A DNA stretch of 64,000 nt from Aliiroseovarius sp. F47248L (GTDB lineage: Bacteria > Pseudomonadota > Alphaproteobacteria > Rhodobacterales > Rhodobacteraceae): assembly GCF_023016085.1 (NCBI RefSeq), contig NZ_JALKBF010000001.1, positions 124,001 through 188,000 on the forward strand. The letters are read 5' to 3'. A model generated the notes under the pieces. It saw only the letters and a list, made by a program, of their open reading frames with translations, had not been told where the DNA came from and ran no database searches. Made by a program: the position numbers and the translations under genes. Of the stretch, positions 9,183 to 19,644 are shown in pieces (the first letter of the stretch is position 1; each line of letters starts with the position of its first letter).

Positions 9183-10259
9183 ATGTCCAGTTTTGATAAG
9201 CAGATTCGTGAAAGCCAAGCGCAGGTTGAAGAGGCGCAGTCCAAGATTTCCGAACTGACGACGCGGATTGAGGCCGCTCGCGCAAAGGCCGCGACGGGCG
9301 AAGATATCTCGATCGATATCGAGAACGCGACGCTGGATGACGTGCATGCACATACCGAGGCGATGAACGCAAATATCGCTGAACTGATCATGGGTTTGGA
9401 TGATGTGACGTCGGGCTTTTCGCAGGATTTTGACCAGATGCGGTCGAAAACCGGGTGGGAGACTTTTGTTGGCATCTTCTCGAAAGGGAAGTCCGAAAGC
9501 ATGCGGCAGGAACGGATGCGGACGGCGTCCATCGACGACAAGCTGCAAGAATTGATTGCGCAGTCGGATTCGATTGTGAGCCTGCTGGAGGGTCAGTTGG
9601 CAATGCTGAACGAGCAGAAGGAAAAGGTAGGTAAGAACCTGACCGCCACGCTGGACGAGCGCGAAATGACGGTGGGCGAGTTGGAAGCCCTGCGCGCCGA
9701 CATTCTGAACATGGACCCCAAGATCATTGAGCTTGAGGGCAAGATTGCCAATGAACAGGACGCTGCCAAGCGCACGCAATTGGAAACCCAGCTGGCTGAC
9801 CTGAACACGCAATACAACGAGATGGTGCAGGACGAGCAAGTGAAGCTTGCCAAGTCCCAGACGCTGGAGCGCTATATCGAAAAGGGCAAAACCTGGGTCG
9901 ACTCGCTGCAAAACCAAGCGGCGACGCAGATGGTGCTGATCAACAAGTTGCAGACAGACACCAAGCAGCGCGTGGTGCTGTATGACGCGCTGACCAAGTC
10001 GCTCAAGACCGCGCAGCAGCAGGATGTGGCCCACCGGATCAACGAGATCGGCGTCGAGACCGACAAGGAAGCCCAAGCCGCGATGGCCGCGATTGGGACG
10101 GCAACGAACCAGCGCATGGCCGACATGATGGAAGCCCACGAAGACCAGATGGTCTTTGCCCGCGACGTGCTGGAGCAGAAGGCCAAAGCCGACGAACGCT
10201 TCGCCCGCCGTTTTGCTGCGATTGTCGAGAAGCACGACAAGAACCTGTATGGGCAATAA
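9183..10259 (+). CDS. TelA-like coiled-coil protein, first gene of the unknown cluster
   Basis: The 358-residue soluble protein is almost entirely helical and coiled coil (residues about 1-35 and 110-345) and has no signal peptide or membrane segment. A short break at about 88-103, reading 'SKTGWETFVGIFSKGK', followed by long helices, resembles the layout of TelA 'toxic anion resistance' proteins, but it is shorter and the match is by eye only. A clear AGGAGG site precedes the ATG. It opens a same-strand run of ten genes to 17235 and stands 6 nt before the next open frame. A structural or scaffold role for the membrane and AAA+ partners downstream is inferred. Another coiled-coil family is possible. 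Confidence 0.75.
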   Translation: MSSFDKQIRESQAQVEEAQSKISELTTRIEAARAKAATGEDISIDIENATLDDVHAHTEAMNANIAELIMGLDDVTSGFSQDFDQMRSKTGWETFVGIFSKGKSESMRQERMRTASIDDKLQELIAQSDSIVSLLEGQLAMLNEQKEKVGKNLTATLDEREMTVGELEALRADILNMDPKIIELEGKIANEQDAAKRTQLETQLADLNTQYNEMVQDEQVKLAKSQTLERYIEKGKTWVDSLQNQAATQMVLINKLQTDTKQRVVLYDALTKSLKTAQQQDVAHRINEIGVETDKEAQAAMAAIGTATNQRMADMMEAHEDQMVFARDVLEQKAKADERFARRFAAIVEKHDKNLYGQ

Positions 10260-10265
10260 CGTCCT

Positions 10266-10658
10266 ATGAGGAGCATTTTGTGGGCATTATCAGCTTGGGT
10301 GGGTGTATCCCTGCTTTCGGTGATTGTGCTCATAGGTCTCGATTGGCTTACAAGTGCGGAGATCGACTGGCTACTGGTCAAAACACTTTTCTTGATCGTT
10401 GTGGCCATTCCGGTTTTGTGTGTGCTTGCGTTTTGGGTGATGTTCTCCGTTCTAGCGCCTTTGATGGCTTGGGGCACTTGGCATTACTTCAGCTTTCTCG
10501 CTGCATTGGTGCCGGTTTCACCTCTTCGCAGGCTTCGAGATTTCATTCATCGAGAGTTGCTCGCGGACACTATCTGGACGATTACGGGGCAGCACGGAAT
10601 AGCAGCCAAGGTCCGGCAAAGCTTGTTGGAAACAGACTCAAGGATGATCCGTGACTAA
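10266..10658 (+). CDS. Small membrane protein of unknown function
   Basis: The 130-residue frame has three hydrophobic stretches (about residues 4-24, 33-58 and 60-83) followed by a basic/polar tail, so an inner-membrane protein is likely. No family is recognised. It lies 6 nt after the TelA-like gene and overlaps the following GTG-initiated gene by 8 nt. Its DNA is visibly richer in A/T than both neighbours, suggesting separate acquisition. The start is uncertain: an in-frame TTG at 10278 is better placed behind AGGAG (10269-10273). An overlapping frame at 10280-10654 is not hydrophobic and is less convincing. Confidence 0.6.
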   Translation: MRSILWALSAWVGVSLLSVIVLIGLDWLTSAEIDWLLVKTLFLIVVAIPVLCVLAFWVMFSVLAPLMAWGTWHYFSFLAALVPVSPLRRLRDFIHRELLADTIWTITGQHGIAAKVRQSLLETDSRMIRD

Positions 10659-11820
10659 CGACATCAAAACCTCTGAACGCGCCTCGGCCGGCTTCGCCCC
10701 CCGCGACCATGCCGAGCTGACGGACACGCAGATCACGCGGCGCTATTTCTCGAAATTCGAGAAGATCACCGCGCATCTGGCCCGTGTGGCTGGACAGATG
10801 GAGGTCGAGGGCAAGTTGACCCGTGACGAGGTCGATGTGCTGGCCCGATACGTGATCAAGCTGGGCCTTAGCTTCAAGGCGCTGGCGAACAAATATCACA
10901 TGTCCGAAACGGCCTATGGGTTGGGCGGTAAAACCCTGACTTTTGATCGTCGCGACAGCGGGTTTCCGATCCATGCCGAACTGCTTCAAATGGCGTCCGA
11001 CGCCGCGCAGGCGGGCACGCATTTGAAGGGCATGGCCACCGCCTCAGACCTGAAAAGCCAGATGGTCAGCCAGATTGTTGGCGACTTGTCGGTTCCGAAA
11101 AAGCTGCAATATGCGCTGTCGCAGCGGCTCTATTACGAGGAACTCCAGCGCGGCGACCTGTTCTGGCCGCAGATGCACCCCGACGTGATCTGGCGGATGA
11201 ACAAAGGTGAAGGGCGTGACGCGCGTCGCGTCTATCTGGCCCATTGGGCGGTCTATGACAGCGAGGTCAACCTGCCCACCATCTATCTGATGGAGCTTGA
11301 AGATACTGGCCGCACAGCCCTTCCCAAAGATGAACGCCGCTGGCCGCAAGTGCAGTCGCATCTGATGGCGCAATCTATGGCGGGGCTGAAGCTCGTGACC
11401 ATCGCGACCGGGTTCGATAAGGATTTCGACGATCTGCATCCCAAACGCCTGCGCCGGTTTCATGTGGGGCCGATGTATAGCCATACTTTCACCCAACAGA
11501 CCGGCCCGTTGCGCGAGGTGCTGGCCGAGGCGAAAAGCCCGCCCGGTGAAGACTGGGCCTTGGCTTGGACGGTCGAGGAACTGAGAAGCCAAAGCGTCAA
11601 GGAAGAGAAGTCCGGTTGGTTCGGCACAGTGGAGCGCGAGATTTTCGCGCTGGATCCCTTTGCCGGATCGGGGTCGAATATCGGCGCGACCAGCATGGAA
11701 CGCGCCATCATCATGCCGGCGCGTCCCTTTCAGGTGCTGGCTGAAAAGAACCCTGCCGGGTTCAACGACGTGCGTAAATTTGTTGTCAGTCCCGGTGGCC
11801 GGGTGCTGAGTTACCGTTGA
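10651..11820 (+). CDS. Conserved-looking soluble protein of unknown function
   Basis: The 389-residue protein starts at a GTG and overlaps the previous open frame by 8 nt. No signal peptide or membrane segment is visible. The N-terminal third is helical ('RRYFSKFEKITAHLARVAGQMEVEGKL'); the C-terminal part contains mixed segments such as 'AWTVEELRSQSVK' and ends in 'FVVSPGGRVLSYR'. No catalytic motif is recognised, and the family is unknown to me. It lies 14 nt before the AAA+ ATPase gene and probably acts with it. Codon use resembles normal genes of the window, so the reading frame is secure even though the function is not. Confidence 0.8.
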   Translation: MTNDIKTSERASAGFAPRDHAELTDTQITRRYFSKFEKITAHLARVAGQMEVEGKLTRDEVDVLARYVIKLGLSFKALANKYHMSETAYGLGGKTLTFDRRDSGFPIHAELLQMASDAAQAGTHLKGMATASDLKSQMVSQIVGDLSVPKKLQYALSQRLYYEELQRGDLFWPQMHPDVIWRMNKGEGRDARRVYLAHWAVYDSEVNLPTIYLMELEDTGRTALPKDERRWPQVQSHLMAQSMAGLKLVTIATGFDKDFDDLHPKRLRRFHVGPMYSHTFTQQTGPLREVLAEAKSPPGEDWALAWTVEELRSQSVKEEKSGWFGTVEREIFALDPFAGSGSNIGATSMERAIIMPARPFQVLAEKNPAGFNDVRKFVVSPGGRVLSYR

Positions 11821-11834
11821 TTTAGGAGTGCTTG

Positions 11835-13766
11835 ATGTCTTTACCCGCTGATTTGATGGAGCTTCGCGAAGAAGAAATCCGTGCACATTACACGGCGGCT
11901 GCCGGGCTTCTGGAAGGGTTTGACCACACACCGCGCATTGCAAAACCGAAGGAAGCGCCCAATGCCGAACGTAGCCCAGGCATTGGACGTGCTCGGCGGT
12001 TTCGATCCACCACGCCGGGTCTGGTAACGCGGTCAACGGCACGGCCTGAAGGGGTGCATCTGGCGGACCGAATTGAAAGCGCAGACGGGGATGACCCGTT
12101 GATTTCTCCGCTTCAGGCGACGGTATTGCACGCGCTACGCCGCGCGATAGCGATTGCGTTGGCTGTCGGTGATGGCTTTGCTGAACAAACCGAACTGGCC
12201 GCCCTGCGCCGCGCCAATCTTGAGGGTCGATTGGGGGCTGATAAGTCCACTGCATTTTCAGAGCTTCTGACTGCCGAGGCGCTGATCGCCCTGCATGTAT
12301 TTGCCAACGCAACGTCTTACTTGCTGGCCGATCACGCCAGTGAGGCGTCGATCGAAGTCGGCGCGGTTGATGAGGTCCTGACCGATAATGCGCCGCTCGC
12401 CTTGAACGGAGCGCTGTGGGAGTTGGATCAGGAACTGGCGACATTCGCGACGTCCGAGGATAAGCTGGTCGCAACCGTCTTGGCTTTTGTCGAACAACTG
12501 ATGGAAAAGGTTGCCCTGCGCGCTCAGACCGCCAGCCATCTTGGCCCATTCACCTCGGCCAATTACCGGGTCGAAGCGGATGACCTGACCATCTCCGGCT
12601 TCACACCCGCCCGCGCCCATCGCGGTTCGACACTCACGATGACGTTCAAGAAACCGAACGAGGTTGTTGGCAACCACATCGCGAAATATCAGGCGATGAA
12701 GCTGGCCAAGATGCTGATGGCCTATGATTTCGACCGCAAGCTGAACCCGTTTGCCGAACTTGGCGGATTCATCTTCACCTTCATGGGCGATGGCAAGCCG
12801 GGCACGGGGAAAACCACGCTGATCCAGATGATGGCCGGCTTGGTCAATGATTATTGCACCGTTGCGGGCTATCCTTTCCGTTATCAGAATTTCGGCATCG
12901 ACAATATCGACAGCTATCAGGGCAAGTCGGGCCAGAACGCCAAGGCGTTCATCAACAATGTGCTCGACCCCAACGTGATTGGCTTCGGCACCGTGGACGA
13001 CATCGACCAGATCGCGGGCAAGCGGGGGGATCGTCAGTCCTCGGCGGGCCAGCAAGAGGTCACGGCGGTCCTGATGGAAAGCTTCTCGGGCGCCAACACC
13101 GTGGTGCGCGGGAACTGCACCTTCGGCATGTTCTCGAACTATCCCGAGAATGTGGATGACGCCCTTCGTCAACGCGCCGGTGCGCGGTTCCTGGTAGATG
13201 GGCCACGGACGCGCGAGGATTACATCGACATCCTGCATCTGCTGATGGGCAAGAACCACGACATCCCGCTGGGCGACCACGACCTGTACGCCGCGCAAGA
13301 GATTAAATCGGCGGTCGCCCGGTCGTTCGAGGCGCATAGCAAGCCCCATGAGGCCGGGCTGATGAACGTGTTCGACCGCGTGCATGATAAGATTGGTGGG
13401 CTGGACGATATCGCCAAAATCGGCACCTATCTGAAAGGCATTCAGGAGGCGGACGAGCGCTTCACGGGCCGCTCGATCAAGAACATCACCGACGCGGTGA
13501 AAGTCCGCGCGATGGACTTTGAGCTGCCCGACGAATGGATGGAGAACCCCGAACTGTTCTTGGTGAAAGACTACGACACCAAGAAAGCGATGATCGCCGA
13601 GCTGCGCGTCCCCATCACCACCGACATGGTGATTCAGGAAATCAACCGCTACGCAGATTCAGAGTTCCGCTATGCCGACAAGTCCGACGAAGCCGCGATT
13701 GAGGCGATGGTGCGGGACTTCGGCCGTCAGGAAGAGGCGAAGAAGCGGTTTTTGGGGGGGAAGTGA
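11835..13766 (+). CDS. AAA+ ATPase of the unknown cluster
   Basis: The 643-residue protein has an uncharacterised N-terminal half (about 1-300) and a C-terminal AAA+ module. Walker A is GTGKTT at residues 323-328, preceded by 'MGDGKP'. The Walker B-like segment is 'GTVDDIDQ', with acidic residues D388, D389 and D391. A sensor-1-like Asn435 lies in 'FSNYPENVDDALRQRAGARF', with candidate Arg-finger residues R445 and R447. ATP-driven remodelling of a partner is inferred. The frame extends 3 nt upstream to a TTG, but AGGAG at 11824-11828 is properly spaced for the ATG at 11835. The next gene starts immediately after its stop. The closest functional class is uncertain. Confidence 0.88.
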   Translation: MSLPADLMELREEEIRAHYTAAAGLLEGFDHTPRIAKPKEAPNAERSPGIGRARRFRSTTPGLVTRSTARPEGVHLADRIESADGDDPLISPLQATVLHALRRAIAIALAVGDGFAEQTELAALRRANLEGRLGADKSTAFSELLTAEALIALHVFANATSYLLADHASEASIEVGAVDEVLTDNAPLALNGALWELDQELATFATSEDKLVATVLAFVEQLMEKVALRAQTASHLGPFTSANYRVEADDLTISGFTPARAHRGSTLTMTFKKPNEVVGNHIAKYQAMKLAKMLMAYDFDRKLNPFAELGGFIFTFMGDGKPGTGKTTLIQMMAGLVNDYCTVAGYPFRYQNFGIDNIDSYQGKSGQNAKAFINNVLDPNVIGFGTVDDIDQIAGKRGDRQSSAGQQEVTAVLMESFSGANTVVRGNCTFGMFSNYPENVDDALRQRAGARFLVDGPRTREDYIDILHLLMGKNHDIPLGDHDLYAAQEIKSAVARSFEAHSKPHEAGLMNVFDRVHDKIGGLDDIAKIGTYLKGIQEADERFTGRSIKNITDAVKVRAMDFELPDEWMENPELFLVKDYDTKKAMIAELRVPITTDMVIQEINRYADSEFRYADKSDEAAIEAMVRDFGRQEEAKKRFLGGK

Positions 13767-14489
13767 ATGCTCCCACTAATAAGTTTACTCCAAAAGCTGT
13801 CATACTCAATCGTAGTTAGTACCCTCGCTCTAGTGGTGTCAGTAGGGGGACTATGGATTAGCTATTACAAGCTGAACCGCGAAGGAGTTCCTCCCGAAGT
13901 TTTCTGGAACCTCAAGAGTATTGAGGTTCGGCCAATAGCTTTGAACAAGTCAGATCTCGAAGTCGCTAGCGAAACAGTTTTGGAAATCGACGGTGAGTTG
14001 GAGATTTCCGTGTCCAACAGAAGTTCAGTCCCCGTGTTTATCGTGTCCTGCAAAATTGCAGGTGAGGGTGTGCATGTGGGAGCTGGTGGCTATGGTGAAC
14101 GATTGTACGACTGTCTTGTGAAAGATGAGATTGGGTTGGAAAAGATCGAGCCAGGGCAAACCGTTTTCATAAGCATAAAGTTTCGCGAGGATGTTTCTCT
14201 ATATGATGTGCATGGGATCACTTACTATCGCGGCTGGGACGGAAAGTTACTGGATAAAGTAATCAGGGAAGGGAACACTTGTCGGATCAGCTTTAGTTTG
14301 ACCGCTGGCGGTGGAGGTTGGGGGCAGAGCTGTGGTCTATTCCGCGGTAGCGAGCGATTGTACTCAATTTTGCTGCAAACCGGCTCTGGCGAGATTATTA
14401 GGAAAACTGTCACCGTGACTGGAACACCTCAATGGCCGTGGGGGCGACTGGAAAGATACGTTTCTGGAGACTGGGAGAACTCTCAATGA
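13767..14489 (+). CDS. Membrane-anchored protein with a beta-rich domain, unknown
   Basis: The 240-residue frame has one N-terminal membrane helix (about residues 12-33, 'SIVVSTLALVVSVGGLWISYY') and an otherwise soluble, strand-rich body. Segments such as 'ELEISVSNRSSVPVFIVSC' and 'EKIEPGQTVFISIKF' look like an immunoglobulin-like sandwich. No family is recognised. The ATG abuts the AAA+ stop with no gap. The DNA is clearly more A/T-rich, with different codon choice (CTA, TTA, AGT), suggesting that this gene was inserted into the cluster. Its end overlaps a truncated duplicate of the gene that starts at 14919. Confidence 0.65.
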   Translation: MLPLISLLQKLSYSIVVSTLALVVSVGGLWISYYKLNREGVPPEVFWNLKSIEVRPIALNKSDLEVASETVLEIDGELEISVSNRSSVPVFIVSCKIAGEGVHVGAGGYGERLYDCLVKDEIGLEKIEPGQTVFISIKFREDVSLYDVHGITYYRGWDGKLLDKVIREGNTCRISFSLTAGGGGWGQSCGLFRGSERLYSILLQTGSGEIIRKTVTVTGTPQWPWGRLERYVSGDWENSQ

Positions 14490-14581
14490 AACGCCTCATC
14501 CAACGCGGCCTCATGTTTGGCAATCTGATCCGGGTCGAAAGCTCGGCGCTCATAGAGCAAACCAGAGATGAGAAATCCTGA
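14486..14581 (+). pseudogene. 31-codon truncated duplicate of the start of the gene at 14919
   Basis: The first 72 nt match positions 14919-14990 at 64 of 72 bases: both encode MKRLIQRGLMFGNLIRV, then E/D, S, S/P and ALIE. After codon 24 similarity stops abruptly, and the frame closes at a TGA after 31 codons. Six of the eight differences are silent, which suggests an old duplicate that was once longer rather than a fresh copy. It is coupled by ATGA overlap to the gene before it and by TGATG to the gene after it. It could be a relic or a retained leader-like peptide. Confidence 0.75.
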
Positions 14582-14922
14582 TGGAAGGCGCTTACCCCTC
14601 AGAAACGGTATCGCTAATCGTGAACGCAATCGCCTTGTTGGTCCTCGCTGTTCTGCCATGGTTCACGGCGCGGTGGACAACGCATCGCGGCGCGCGGTTT
14701 TTCTCGGCCATTCCGGGCGTTTTCGCGTTCACAGCCGCCACCACCGTTTGGGCGATTGACGCTGGTCTCAGCATCATTCCACGAGCGCCCGATATGACCC
14801 ACAATTTCGAATTGGCAGTCGGCATGTTGATTGGCAACGGCATGCTTTACTTGCTGGTCTGGTCGGTGGTCTTCACCTTCATCCTGCGCCATGGGGCATC
14901 AAAGCGGAGTGCCAACATATGA
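14581..14922 (+). CDS. Small multi-pass membrane protein, unknown
   Basis: The 113-residue protein has three predicted membrane helices (about residues 10-27, 38-59 and 80-104) and a short basic C-terminus. No family is recognised. Its ATG overlaps the stop of the 31-codon duplicate (TGATG), and its own TGA overlaps the next start (ATGA). It therefore sits exactly between the truncated and the complete copy of the same gene start. This placement suggests that it arrived or was retained through the duplication event. Confidence 0.7.
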   Translation: MEGAYPSETVSLIVNAIALLVLAVLPWFTARWTTHRGARFFSAIPGVFAFTAATTVWAIDAGLSIIPRAPDMTHNFELAVGMLIGNGMLYLLVWSVVFTFILRHGASKRSANI

Positions 14923-16280
14923 AACGCCTCATCCAACGCGGTCTCATGTTTGGTAACTTGATCCGGGTCGACAGCCCGGCGCTGATTGAGCGGTATAACC
15001 GTGCGCTGCACGGGCTGGCGGGCAAGCGCACGGGGCTGACCGAATTTCACATCGACATCTCTGGCTACTCGCCCGAGATCGGCGAGGAGCTGGACGATCC
15101 GCTCTACGTCAACCCCAATGGCTGCAACCGGCAATTCATCATTCTGACGGTCGACCAGAAGACCGCGCCGCTGCTGAACGCCATGTTCTCGACCTCGCGT
15201 GGGATCTTGCGCCGGTTCATCACGGACAATGAAGCGAAGCTGTTTGCCCTCACGGCCCATGACGCGGTGGCAGGCGAGTTGATGAACTCGGTCTATGACA
15301 TCTCGAACCCCGCACGGCTGTTTGATATCCGCAAGATCACGGTCGAGGCCGATACGACCCAAAGCCATGTGAAGAACGCCCGCCTTCTGGCCGACAAGAT
15401 CAACAAGTTTCAAAGCGAAGAGAACGCGTGGTTCGACGACGACCTGATCGCCGAAATGATCGAGCTTGCCCGCGAAACCGGTGACGTGACCAAGGTTCCC
15501 GTCGATCTGGGCGTGCAGGAATACGAACAGGGCAATTTCTGGACGGCGCATTTCGGCGGGCTTTACATTTTCCGCGACGTGGAAAACCCCGCGGTGATCG
15601 TGTCAGGCGACAAGACGCGGCTGACACTGCCACCATCGGTCAAGGTACTGGACACGGGCGAGGCGAACCGGCTGGCGGGTTTCCTCAGCCGAAATGACCT
15701 TGTCGAACCTGTCGTGCAGGAACGAGGCGACGGTGGCGCGGCAATCCTGCGCCAGAAGATGGAGTTCATTCTGGTAGATGCAGCCACCAGTGCGGGGCTC
15801 GATCTGGGCGATATGTCTTCGCGCACATTACGTCACGTGGCACAGCGCATGGGCGCGCATCTACCCGAGGCGTTTCGTGGGCTGGCCGCCATGGTGCGCT
15901 GGGCCGAGGCAGGCGGCGGGTGGCCCCGGATCGACAGCCGACACCCGGCCTATTTCTATACCTTGCGCGCGCGTCCTGATCACCCGGACCGCGATTTGAT
16001 CAACCGGCTGCTATCCGAACTGGCACCAATGGATTTCCGGCAACTTTTCATCTGCCACAAGGAGCTTTTCTATGCTTCTTACGCCACATGGCCTGACGAA
16101 AAGCGTGAATTTGTGGCAGAATTCCTGCATCGTGATTATATGGCAAACAAGGCCGGTGCGCGCGAGGCGCTGTTTGGTGGTCGTAAGAAACCGTTGCAAG
16201 TGCCGCGGACAACCCGCGCGCAGACACGTGACGAGATCATCGAGATTGTCGGCCCATGGGGCGCAGTAAGTAGGAGGTAA
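14919..16280 (+). CDS. Large soluble protein of unknown function (possibly DUF6638-type)
   Basis: The 453-residue protein begins MKRLIQRGLMFGNLIRVDSPALIERYN and has no signal peptide or membrane helix. Its C-terminal third includes 'LFICHKELFYASYATWPDEKREFVAEFLHRDY', and the tail is basic. No catalytic motif is recognised. From memory it resembles the Rhodobacteraceae family labelled DUF6638, which I cannot confirm here. Codon use is typical of the window. It is translationally coupled to the preceding membrane gene, and its stop overlaps the start region of the next small membrane gene. A truncated second copy of its first 24 codons lies 433 nt upstream. Confidence 0.8.
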   Translation: MKRLIQRGLMFGNLIRVDSPALIERYNRALHGLAGKRTGLTEFHIDISGYSPEIGEELDDPLYVNPNGCNRQFIILTVDQKTAPLLNAMFSTSRGILRRFITDNEAKLFALTAHDAVAGELMNSVYDISNPARLFDIRKITVEADTTQSHVKNARLLADKINKFQSEENAWFDDDLIAEMIELARETGDVTKVPVDLGVQEYEQGNFWTAHFGGLYIFRDVENPAVIVSGDKTRLTLPPSVKVLDTGEANRLAGFLSRNDLVEPVVQERGDGGAAILRQKMEFILVDAATSAGLDLGDMSSRTLRHVAQRMGAHLPEAFRGLAAMVRWAEAGGGWPRIDSRHPAYFYTLRARPDHPDRDLINRLLSELAPMDFRQLFICHKELFYASYATWPDEKREFVAEFLHRDYMANKAGAREALFGGRKKPLQVPRTTRAQTRDEIIEIVGPWGAVSRR

Positions 16281-16282
16281 TG

Positions 16283-16549
16283 ATGGGGTTGGTGCGACTT
16301 GTCATTTTTGGATTTATCGGGCTGAGTATCGTCTATGTGCTGGTCAGCATTTATTCCCGTTCGGTCCGGTTGGAAAAGCTCGAGAATCAGTGGGCCGAGG
16401 AACATCCCGACGGTGACGTGACCGACCGCGAGGCGTGGTTGCGCGAAGGGATGGAGGACTACAAGAAAAGCTTTCGCCCCAAGCTGATCCTGCTGGTTTA
16501 TGTGATCCCCGCAATCTTTGTTCTGATGTCTGTCATATTAATTAACTGA
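16283..16549 (+). CDS. Small membrane protein, unknown
   Basis: This is an 88-residue protein with a hydrophobic N-terminal helix (about 1-22), a charged middle ('WAEEHPDGDVTDREAWLREGMEDY') and a second hydrophobic helix at the C-terminus (about 67-87). No family is recognised. The frame can also start 3 nt upstream at 16280, but AGGAGG at 16272-16277 is better spaced for the ATG at 16283. It follows the 453-residue gene within 3 nt and precedes the DUF1523-type gene by 8 nt, so it is part of the cluster. Confidence 0.75.
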   Translation: MGLVRLVIFGFIGLSIVYVLVSIYSRSVRLEKLENQWAEEHPDGDVTDREAWLREGMEDYKKSFRPKLILLVYVIPAIFVLMSVILIN

Positions 16550-16557
16550 GGTTCCCT

Positions 16558-17235
16558 ATGCGCCGATTTCGTATCATCATCCGTAGCCTGATCTTTCTGA
16601 TCCTGTTCGGCGTGTTTCACTATGTTTTGCCACAGCATGACGTCGTTCGGGTCGTAAACACCTATCAGGAACGGCAGGATCTAGGTGACTGGACCCGGAT
16701 ATTCTGGTCAAAGCCGGATGATCAATCCGCGACTTTGATCAACCGCGATGTTCAGTTTATTCAGACGGTAAAGAAGAAAACCTATCTTCTGGGCTTCATT
16801 CGCAGCGATGCGGAAGAAGTCATGGTTTATCGCAATGAAGACACCGGTTGGGGCTGGCCTTTCTATTTCAAGTTCGACACTGCAAATTTGCAGACCGAGG
16901 CGGACGACCTTCGATCCTCTGGCGAGAGCCCGAAATGGGCAGTGATGACGCATTACGGGTGGCGCAACGAACTGATTTCAGCCTTCCCCAACGCCGTCGC
17001 GATCCGGGCCGTCGCAAGCCCGGATGTCACGATCATTCCTTGGTTCAACATCCTGTTCTTCCTTGTTCTGGCGATCATCATTGGCTTCGTGCGCGCCCTG
17101 TGGCGGCAGTTCCGCGAACGCTCGATTGATCCGGCATTGGAAGACGCGGGCGAGGCATGGGACGCCGTGGACGAACGCGCGGACAAGGCGCGGGGCCGGT
17201 TCTCGCGCTGGCTCGGGTCTTGGCGCGGGAAGTGA
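16558..17235 (+). CDS. DUF1523-type membrane protein
   Basis: The 225-residue protein has an N-terminal membrane helix (about residues 8-24), a soluble domain with 'YRNEDTGWGWPFYFKFDTANL' and 'HYGWRNELISAFPNA', a second helix (about 160-182) and a basic tail. The soluble domain matches my memory of the DUF1523 family, common in alphaproteobacteria and of unknown function. Two helices would place the central domain in the periplasm. It ends the ten-gene run and is followed 10 nt later by a strong bidirectional terminator. Confidence 0.82.
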   Translation: MRRFRIIIRSLIFLILFGVFHYVLPQHDVVRVVNTYQERQDLGDWTRIFWSKPDDQSATLINRDVQFIQTVKKKTYLLGFIRSDAEEVMVYRNEDTGWGWPFYFKFDTANLQTEADDLRSSGESPKWAVMTHYGWRNELISAFPNAVAIRAVASPDVTIIPWFNILFFLVLAIIIGFVRALWRQFRERSIDPALEDAGEAWDAVDERADKARGRFSRWLGSWRGK

Positions 17236-17245
17236 CGCAATAAAG

Positions 17246-17275
17246 AACGCCGCGCAGAGGGTTCTGCGCGGCGTT
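17246..17275. terminator. Strong bidirectional terminator
   Basis: AACGCCGCGCAGA (17246-17258) pairs perfectly with TCTGCGCGGCGTT (17263-17275) around a GGGT loop. It lies between the end of the unknown cluster (+) and the ALDH16 gene (-), and marks the cluster boundary. Confidence 0.85.
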
Positions 17276-17292
17276 TCACATGTCAGGACCGT

Positions 17293-19644
17293 TTATTCGC
17301 CGTAAGGCACCCAGATCGTTTTGACTTCTGTCGCATGGGTCAGAAACTCGCGACCTTCGCCAGCTGCCCCGAACCAGTCCCGCGCTTTCGCATTGTTGAC
17401 CCAGCTGCGTTTCAGGTTCCCCGCGCTTTCTCCTTCGACGATGGCCGAGATGTCTGCGCCCGATTGCGCCCAAACAGCGTCCACACCAAGGTGGCCCGCC
17501 AAGGGCGACGCCAGTTCTGCGTGGCTTCCGGTAACGATGTTCACGACGCCCGCCGGCACGTCAGATGTGTCGAGCACCTGATAGAAGTCGGTAGCCGCCA
17601 ATGGGAACGGCTCGCTTGCCGCCAGCACCACGCGGTTGCCCATCGCGATGGCCGGGGCCATCAAGGACACGAACCCCAGAAGGGGAGCATCGTCCGGGCA
17701 GAAGCCGCCAATCACGCCGACAGGCTCGTTCATCGCCAGCGCTACGCCGCGCATTGGGACGGGCTTAGCAGCACCATCATATTTGTCGGCCCAAGCGGCA
17801 TAGGTGAATAGGCGACTGACGGCAGCGCCGACCTCTTTCGCACCATTCCGTCCGCTCATCATGGCGTCGATCCGCGCGGCGAATTCCTCCGCGCGGGCCG
17901 AGAGGTTTTCACCGATGTAGTAGAGGATCTGTGCGCGCAAGTGGCCCGTTGTCTTTGACCAGCTCGTCGCCGCATGGGCGGCTTCGAAGGCGTTGCGGAT
18001 GTCCTTGCGATTGGCAACGCCTACATGACCCAGAAGGTCGCCCTGTTTGGACCAGACCGCTTTGCTATAGCCGCCATCAGGCCGCGCCTGTTTGCCGCCG
18101 ATATAGAATTTCGCAGTGCGGTCGAGCGCGTCGACCTTGGCCTCTTTCGGGGCGGGGAAGGCGGCGATAGGTTTGAGAGACAGCGTTTTGCCGCGAGGCT
18201 TGGTATAGGCTTGCAAGCCTTCCCAACCGCCTTCGCGACCAAACCCGCTTTCGCGCACACCGCCAAAGCCTGCGGCAGCGTCAAACATGTTGGTGCCGTT
18301 CACCCAGACCACGCCCGCGGCCAGTTTGGGCGCGATGTCCAGCGTCAGGTTCACATTCTCGCTCCACACCGTGGCGGCCAGCCCGTAACGGGTGTTGTTG
18401 GCGATCTCGACCGCCTCGGCTGGGGTGCGGAAGGTGGTGGCGACCAGTACCGGGCCGAAGATTTCTTCCTGCATCAGCATGGACGCCGACGACAGGCCGG
18501 TGATCAGGGTGGGCGGATAGAAACAACCCGCCGTGGGGATCGGGCAGGGGGCTTGGTAAAGTACGCCGTCGCCTGCGCCCGCCTCGACCAGCTTCGTGAT
18601 TTGCGCGTGCTGAACAGGGTCCACCACGGCGCCCACGTCAATGGATTTGTCCAGCGGATCGCCCATGCGCAACTTGTCCATCCGGGCTTTCAGCTTGGTA
18701 TAGAAACGGTCGGCGATGCCTTCCTGCACGATCAGGCGCGAGCCTGCACAGCAGACCTGACCCTGATTGAACCAGATTGCGTCCACCAGACCTTCGACCG
18801 CTGAATCCAGATCGGCGTCGTCAAATACGATATAAGGGGACTTGCCCCCAAGTTCCAATGTCAGAGACTTGCCCGACCCCGCCGTTTCACGACGGATCAC
18901 GCGGCCAACCTCGGTCGAGCCGGTGAAGGCGATCTTGTCGACCTCTTCATGAGTCACAATGGCCTCACCTACTCGCCCGTCGCCGGTCACGATGTTGACG
19001 ACGCCCTTGGGCAAGCCTGCTTCGTCGCAGATTTGTGCGAACAGAAGCGCGGTCAGAGATGTGTATTCGGCGGGTTTCAGGACTACCGTGTTCCCCATCG
19101 CAATCGCGGGCGCGATTTTCCATGACAACATCAGAAGTGGGAAATTCCAGGGGATGATCTGACCGCAGACGCCCAATGCCTCGCGGTCGGGAAGCTCGGC
19201 GTCCTGCAACTGCGCCATACCTGCGTGGTAATAGAAATGCCGCGCGACCAGCGGAATGTCGATGTCGCGGCTTTCGCGGATAGGCTTGCCGTTGTCGAGG
19301 GTTTCCAGAACCGCGAACAGCCGCGAGTGCTTTTGCACCAGTCGCGCGAGCGCATAGAGGTATTTCGCGCGTTCGTGCCCGGACAATGCCGCCCATTTAC
19401 GCTGCGCTTTTCGCGCTGCGGTCACGGCGGCGTCCACATCGTCGGGTGAGGCCTGCGTAACCTGAGCCAATACCTCACCCGTAGCTGGGTTCTTGCTGTC
19501 AAACGTGTCGCCGACAGCGGTCATCCTGCCGCCGATATAAAGACCGAATTGGCCGTCGTGTTCGGCAATCCACGCCAACGCCTCTTTCGCGCTTTCCGGG
19601 GCGAGGCCATAATCCATAGTGTCGAAGATCTCTTTTACGGTCAT
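17293..19644 (-). CDS. ALDH16-type aldehyde dehydrogenase with two ALDH domains
   Basis: The 783-residue protein carries a complete N-terminal NAD(P)-dependent aldehyde dehydrogenase domain with the general-base Glu in 'ELGGKSP' and the nucleophilic Cys in 'NQGQVCCAGS' (C298 or C299). A second, shorter ALDH-like domain (from about residue 500) contains 'VGVIGGFCPDDAPLLG' and 'MAPAIAMGNRVVLAASE' but lacks the Cys motif. Two-domain architecture with a degenerate second domain is the hallmark of ALDH16. It starts 10 nt after deoC on the same strand, so it plausibly oxidises the acetaldehyde or a related aldehyde released by deoxyribose-phosphate aldolase. The exact substrate is inferred. Confidence 0.92.
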   Translation of the reverse strand: MTVKEIFDTMDYGLAPESAKEALAWIAEHDGQFGLYIGGRMTAVGDTFDSKNPATGEVLAQVTQASPDDVDAAVTAARKAQRKWAALSGHERAKYLYALARLVQKHSRLFAVLETLDNGKPIRESRDIDIPLVARHFYYHAGMAQLQDAELPDREALGVCGQIIPWNFPLLMLSWKIAPAIAMGNTVVLKPAEYTSLTALLFAQICDEAGLPKGVVNIVTGDGRVGEAIVTHEEVDKIAFTGSTEVGRVIRRETAGSGKSLTLELGGKSPYIVFDDADLDSAVEGLVDAIWFNQGQVCCAGSRLIVQEGIADRFYTKLKARMDKLRMGDPLDKSIDVGAVVDPVQHAQITKLVEAGAGDGVLYQAPCPIPTAGCFYPPTLITGLSSASMLMQEEIFGPVLVATTFRTPAEAVEIANNTRYGLAATVWSENVNLTLDIAPKLAAGVVWVNGTNMFDAAAGFGGVRESGFGREGGWEGLQAYTKPRGKTLSLKPIAAFPAPKEAKVDALDRTAKFYIGGKQARPDGGYSKAVWSKQGDLLGHVGVANRKDIRNAFEAAHAATSWSKTTGHLRAQILYYIGENLSARAEEFAARIDAMMSGRNGAKEVGAAVSRLFTYAAWADKYDGAAKPVPMRGVALAMNEPVGVIGGFCPDDAPLLGFVSLMAPAIAMGNRVVLAASEPFPLAATDFYQVLDTSDVPAGVVNIVTGSHAELASPLAGHLGVDAVWAQSGADISAIVEGESAGNLKRSWVNNAKARDWFGAAGEGREFLTHATEVKTIWVPYGE

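Follow-up and report, generated by a model that had tools for sequence, protein, structure and literature searches.

How can a run of genes packed as tightly as one operon hold pieces that nearly all of its relatives lack at the same position? Here, we describe such a run in the marine bacterium Aliiroseovarius sp. F47248L (Rhodobacteraceae; assembly GCF_023016085.1, contig NZ_JALKBF010000001.1, forward-strand positions 124,001 to 188,000; this stretch of 64,000 nucleotides is called the window, and positions are given within it). All ten same-strand open reading frames (ORFs) that an earlier note had listed from the letters alone were confirmed at 9183-17235, overlapping or closely spaced; they are lettered A to I, with a 31-codon remnant between E and F (Table 1). 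Six of them (A, C, D, G, H and I) make up one conserved operon, the core; the other four pieces (B, E, the remnant and F) vary between genomes and occupy two slots, A-C and D-G, as cargo. We read the locus as a six-gene, membrane-associated AAA+ operon, vertically inherited, with two internal cassette slots, and give this reading a probability of roughly 0.6. Gene-exchange hotspots are known; what is new here is the location inside an operon. Genes are seldom swapped inside operons, which are generally spared by incoming genes.

Loci were examined around DUF6638 (gene G), beginning with 60 loci from the home family, taken from the 69 of 149 family genomes with a match, and adding 19 loci from the genus, two from outside the family, two more from the family and 80 named loci; removal of 17 duplicates gave 133 distinct loci with both D and G. 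Loci carry L numbers, genomes G numbers and families within the phylum f numbers, and L077, L085 and L089 (remnant, frameshifted, truncated) were excluded from gap and order counts. The order A-C-D-G-H-I was found in all 125 distinct loci where all six genes were called. The remaining eight lack H (L112) or lack A or A and C (seven loci, several on short contigs, not each of them inspected). Among the first 60 family loci, A, C and D are present in 53 and G, H and I in all 60, in a single order throughout, and B, E and F were found in the window only. Across the 149 family genomes D occurs in 63, G in 69 and both in 63; none has D without G, and six have G without D. In three of these six (G044, G108, G147) the contig ends shortly upstream of G, in two (G068, G148) G is damaged or a remnant, and in G096 3.3 kb upstream of G contain no D. 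All 21 genomes of the genus have D. A tree built from D plus G of 72 loci follows the genera, with 7 changes for 8 multi-row genera, which is the minimum. The six genes form a conserved unit whose order is maintained in Rhodobacterales and also outside them, and D co-occurs with G. Independent scattering of homologues, named in the earlier note as evidence that would speak against one machine, is absent for the six core genes; in other genomes, different content stands in place of B, E, F and the remnant, or they are missing.

The five core junctions differ sharply in how often they are enlarged, with gaps of at least 150 bp counted as enlarged: A-C in 72/126 loci, C-D in 12/128, D-G in 122/133, and G-H and H-I in 0/132 each, with a median D-G gap of 706 bp and a maximum of 4962 bp. 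Slot ORFs were called mechanically (some are surely spurious), and codirectional ORFs of 60 amino acids (aa) or more were counted as cargo. The A-C slot yielded 71 cargo ORFs in 49 clusters (39 of them single), 58 ORFs having a hydrophobic segment, and the D-G slot 177 ORFs in 81 clusters (57 single), 110 with such a segment. Each slot has its own repertoire, no cluster of called ORFs having members in both. Cargo is tightly coupled to the core: in the 64 cargo-bearing D-G slots of a 75-locus set, it shares an exact 4-nt overlap with G in 40 and starts with a 4-nt overlap on the D stop in 32, with both ends coupled in 18. Of 38 A-C slots, 12 have a 4-nt overlap at the start; at the end, 8 overlap by 4 nt and 12 by 8 nt. 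In one count of slot ORFs of either direction, 124/137 are codirectional. In the window, E starts directly after the stop codon of D; ATGA is common to E and the remnant (the remnant ATG on the E stop), TGATG to the remnant and F (the remnant TGA on the F ATG), and ATGA again to F and G; the guanine-plus-cytosine (GC) content of E is 0.48, against 0.59 for D and G. The longest D-G slot, at L171, has a transketolase among its called ORFs.

Both slots hold a fixed position between conserved genes and change content faster than their flanks, as a gene-exchange hotspot does. Scored by family on the core tree, the largest D-G cargo changes 25 times over 46 rows and 14 states (shuffled mean 35.1, range 30-38), and A-C cargo 10 times over 21 rows and 7 states (shuffled 13.8, 11-15). 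Cargo is thus partly inherited but turns over much faster than the core. The largest D-G cargo falls into 12 families among 16 close Aliiroseovarius loci, and cargo differs between two nearly identical Tateyamaria cores (L200 and L202) and between two Albidovulum cores (L176 and L183). Recurrent cargo families occur in distant genera; relatives of B are in the same slot in 4 other Aliiroseovarius loci and in L196.

The remnant itself appears to be a footprint of cassette exchange. It duplicates a G start, being 91% identical over 65 bp to the window's own G start and 94.5-94.7% identical over 73-75 bp to the G 5' ends of L096, L102 and L104. F matches DNA of L103 over 338 bp at 91% identity, and the match stops exactly before G there. 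The remnant-E half and the F-G half resemble different relatives, and the window's slot would therefore join two cassettes. The flanks may carry a further signal: in Aliiroseovarius (16 genomes), four-fold-site diversity at sites no more than 100 codons from a slot edge is 0.24 (143 sites), compared with 0.39 (593 sites) elsewhere and 0.42 (106 sites) at the non-slot ends of C, D and G, a drop equalled in 0 of 5000 permutations, which treat sites as independent. The edge ratio is 0.63 within Aliiroseovarius versus 0.92 for divergence from other genera. In this genus, we take the drop to reflect recombination through the flanks; local constraint may account for part of it.

Taken together, the junctions, the footprints and the diversity of the flanks lead us to infer that cassettes are swapped by recombination. 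The operon would be kept by descent, while incoming DNA from related bacteria that has D and G (or A and C) in common with the recipient would replace the content of a slot by homologous recombination. Slot A-C would receive small membrane proteins. Slot D-G would receive either a four-helix membrane protein, called T here, or a single short gene or a pair of them, in many cases resembling abortive-infection, HEPN or nuclease genes. Swapped-in cargo would come under the operon's own expression and leave the operon intact, and the stop-start overlaps would couple its translation to that of the operon.

To describe the cargo, a first D-G set (75 ORFs minus 7 doubtful ones, leaving 68), a second set of 81 D-G ORFs chosen for a hydrophobic segment or a length of 100 aa or more, and 68 length-matched flank ORFs as controls were scanned with PADLOC and Pfam. 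In the first set, PADLOC at 0.01 matched DrmA (3), mREase_IV (2) and 20 more families, mostly with single members, and Pfam matched AbiJ_NTD4 (2), HATPase (2), Hypoth_Ymh, Mrr, putAbiC, HNH, DUF3825 and DUF4145. Clear single cases include L092 (PD-Lambda-3_B, 5.7e-77), L090 (PDC-S02/mREase_IV and Mrr/mREase_IV, 6e-23), L107 (DrmA-like, 5.6e-8) and L040 (HNH); single-ORF scans of cargo from L056, L033, L043, L093, L100 and L060 gave no family. Pfam matched DUF559 in 5 ORFs of the second set, MTES_1575 in 3, and also HNH, DUF5677 and one transketolase. Pfam matches of the flank controls were ordinary metabolic families, with no abortive-infection or nuclease family among the 25 of 56 control families listed, and 40 A-C ORFs gave five Pfam matches, all weak. 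To judge from these profiles, annotated D-G cargo is for the most part abortive-infection or nuclease-like. Clear single cases beside weak control matches make a defence enrichment suggestive, not proven; defence-type cargo is genuine in individual instances and frequent among the ORFs that have an annotation. Cargo similar to putAbiC in the D-G slot has a constant N-terminal membrane module (PNExGDTLAGxAG) and widely differing C-terminal parts. T occurs in 34 genomes; 12 of these lack D (loci L211-L219, L221, L222 and L229), and in 12/12 of the latter it lies directly before H-I (or before I, with H uncalled). There, T before DUF1523 is a residual membrane module after loss of the ATPase part.

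Several results weigh against an operon with exchangeable cassettes in defence-rich slots. The D-G cargo changes 25 times against 35 when shuffled, which means some inheritance with the tree; copies of the G start are limited to 3/66 filled slots (the window, L044 and L061), and no copy of the D 3' end was found in the 66 filled slots searched. Maritimibacter (ratio 0.97) shows no drop in edge diversity and Tateyamaria (0.82) a weak one, and D codons 350-450, distant from the slots, are also low in diversity, so constraint may explain part of the drop. Most cargo is without family annotation, one D-G cargo gene is a transketolase, and PADLOC on the second set of 81 ORFs gave mREase_IV at 6e-7 as the only match below 1e-5, with four weak families besides. 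The flank controls also gave PADLOC matches, few and weak, of helix-turn-helix type (best 2.5e-6). A scan for a promoter found none.

For the function of the core we can only infer. D belongs to the AAA+ proteins by its PF00004 profile together with Walker A and B (GKPGTGKTT from residue 321 with the TTG start, DDID at 389); GTGKTT begins at residue 324 from the TTG and at 323 from an ATG three bases on, and the position 323-328 reported earlier matches when counted from that ATG. G matches DUF6638 (PF20343) over residues 10-452 with 703.7 bits against a cut-off of 27, and what had been called a 453-residue unknown, correct in size, is therefore a member of a known family. I, already described as a DUF1523 protein, matches PF07509 with 226.3 bits against a cut-off of 23. 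In the Pfam scan, A, B, C, E, F and H had no match at family cut-off. Hydrophobic segments are missing from A, C, D and G, and two are present in each of H and I; with D as the AAA+ ATPase, the simplest picture would be a soluble ATPase complex located at the membrane, in which A, C and G would be partners of a D ring that H and I hold there. As suggested earlier, the ATPase may remodel a partner at the envelope.

A bolder alternative would make the whole locus one modular immune or conflict system, in which the AAA+ core senses or restrains, the D-G gene is a swappable toxic effector and the A-C gene a second swappable part. It would amount to a new class of modular immunity, an AAA+/DUF6638/coiled-coil membrane machine controlling effector cassettes in coupled slots, a Rhodobacterales 'magazine'. 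Slot-specific repertoires speak for it, as does the constant membrane module with a variable C-terminal part in putAbiC-like cargo. So does the placing of strong family members against the 149 genomes: the putAbiC-like profile gave 7 matches, of which the 4 strong ones are in the slot (4/4) and 3 weak ones elsewhere, a 200-aa family 5, with 3 in the slot (3/3 of the strong ones), and a 255-aa family 6, with three in slots and one in a decayed operon (4/6); all these strong slot matches except the one in the decayed operon were themselves in the query profiles. The other two members of the 255-aa family lie outside the slot (G140, 9e-59, and G038, 1e-21), and weak relatives of the putAbiC-like and 200-aa families occur outside it in five further genomes, which counts against the modular system. 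E found only its own copy and one weak match (5e-4) in the same genomes. The D-G slot has less than 150 bp in 11/133 loci, so the core persists without cargo. Slot contents also assort almost freely, since 41 locus pairs share an A-C family and 6 of them a D-G family too (base rate 111/1770), and the core is inherited with genera, unlike typical defence systems. PrrC/RloC-type nucleases are tied to type I restriction operons, where the restriction enzyme silences the effector; the likeness is a toxic single-gene effector carried within the operon of a larger machine, and the difference is that the machine here is an AAA+ ATPase with DUF6638 and the cargo comes from dozens of unrelated families. 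We consider a modular system of this kind, as an alternative and as a proposed new class, unlikely. Within the cassette-slot reading, we give about even odds that D-G cargo would act alone in defence or stress, and control of that cargo by the core seems to us distinctly doubtful.

Less probable still is an ordinary housekeeping operon with lax spacing, in whose gaps functionless insertions sit for a time or decay. Such an operon would account for slots with only short doubtful ORFs, for E, F and the many other cargo genes that are rare or single, and for the DUF559-type insertions, accompanied by short repeats, that occupy the D-G gap in another family. It sits poorly with the exact 4-nt coupling at both ends of the D-G slot, with insertion at two of five junctions, with cargo that is almost all codirectional and with families that recur in distant genera, and we regard it as quite improbable. 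A single envelope-stress machine of all ten genes with a TelA-like component, for which a common strand, tight packing and a conserved core speak, is highly improbable, since nearly all relatives lack B, E and F at the same position, close relatives with intact core genes have other cargo instead, and no TelA relation was found. What stands of the one membrane-associated machine proposed earlier is a conserved AAA+ unit with two small membrane proteins and DUF1523, not all ten pieces.

The identification of A as a TelA-like coiled coil was not upheld. A has no Pfam match to TelA (PF05816) up to E 1, and profile-profile comparison by hhalign gave a probability of 0.3% with narrow and wide A alignments against a TelA side of 10 sequences from one family. 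A true TelA gene (PF05816, 1e-107) lies elsewhere in the same genome (G000:C1:239782-240777), and TelA is a separate gene in 36/41 family genomes searched. A is 43-82% identical to 24 other aligned members of its own family.

The exchange proposed here resembles the hotspots of PMC5635113 (2017) in that genes turn over fast at a fixed position bounded by conserved genes, and in possible signs of recombination in the flanks; our scans likewise recognised no integrase in the slots. Unlike those, the hotspot here is inside a tightly coupled operon and takes one to a few short genes. In the core defense hotspots of Pseudomonas aeruginosa (PMC10250203) and the defence islands of E. coli (PMC10121019), defence cargo sits between core genes, and for cDHS1, which spans 1-224 kb, exchange through conserved flanks was proposed (PMC10250203). 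Defence-type cargo, changing identity and fixed core-gene borders are common to those hotspots and the slots; the genes flanking those hotspots are not described as one operon, and the slots here are at most about 5 kb, with a median of 706 bp and stop-start overlaps. The slots may be an unusual way of reloading the cell's defences. If the cassette-slot reading is true, a conserved operon is a standing docking site that gives newcomers immediate, ready-made expression, contrary to the rule that operons are spared. D and G as a marker pair would then fish many small unknown genes from marine bacteria, some of them likely new defence genes, and direct tests of function would become possible for DUF6638, for DUF1523 and for two proteins that have no sequence match in PDB. 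A literature search found no paper on DUF6638, and papers naming DUF1523 concern other subjects, judged by their titles.

Table 1. Features of the operon and its slots in window coordinates (pLDDT, predicted local distance difference test)
Feature	Position	Strand	Basis or remark
A, core, soluble coiled coil, 358 aa	9183..10259	+	below every Pfam family cut-off
Slot 1 (A-C), variable gap	10260..10650	+	gap lengths across loci
B, slot-1 cargo, 130 aa, 3 hydrophobic segments	10266..10658	+	8-nt overlap with C start
C, core, 389 aa, without family	10651..11820	+	AlphaFold2 model pLDDT 91.6
D, core AAA+ ATPase, 644 aa	11832..13766	+	PF00004, 2e-11
Slot 2 (D-G), whole	13767-14918, first part 13767..14485	+	gap lengths across loci
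E, slot-2 cargo, 240 aa, one N-terminal hydrophobic segment	13767..14489	+	GC 0.48
31-codon remnant, partial copy of G 5' end	14486..14581	+	DNA identity to G starts
F, slot-2 cargo, 113 aa, 2 hydrophobic segments	14581..14922	+	4-nt overlap with G
G, core, DUF6638 (PF20343), 453 aa	14919..16280	+	1e-211; AlphaFold2 model pLDDT 86.2
H, core, 89 aa, two hydrophobic segments	16280..16549	+	
I, core, DUF1523 (PF07509), 225 aa, two hydrophobic segments	16558..17235	+	2e-67
13-bp hairpin past the operon	17246..17275		T-rich tail found on minus strand

The strong terminator reported earlier past the operon is a hairpin whose T-rich tail the scan found only on the minus strand, and so fits the convergent minus-strand gene at 17293-19644 at least as well. 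Neighbouring genes recur, with relatives of the downstream 783-aa protein in 75/132 loci and of the upstream 425-aa protein in 59/132, the length of flank held varying between loci.

Beyond the home family, A was found in 31/349 genomes of the phylum: 24 full-length copies (12 in the home family, 10 in f174, and one each in f179 and f198, the latter belonging to another class), together with 3 partial paralogues and 4 weak matches. Fourteen loci outside the family were examined (L111, L112, L261-L270, L274 and L275). Their D-G gap is empty (<60 bp) in 6 and 225-648 bp long in 8, and 1/14 has an A-C gap of 150 bp or more. Six of the 8 filled gaps contain a DUF559-type ORF related to family cargo (L264, L265, L267, L268, L270 and L274, all of another family), so D-G takes insertions elsewhere too, there with one type of cargo. 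This nuclease-like family, present also in the home-family slot, might help cassettes move. L261 (G590), from another class of the phylum, has a complete and very similar A-C-D-G-H-I operon in a single-contig genome (A at 1e-190, D-G empty), likely through transfer between classes. In L271-L273 (f174), C, D and G are missing, and a distantly related paralogue of A adjoins an ORF that was named thymidine-kinase-like by eye.

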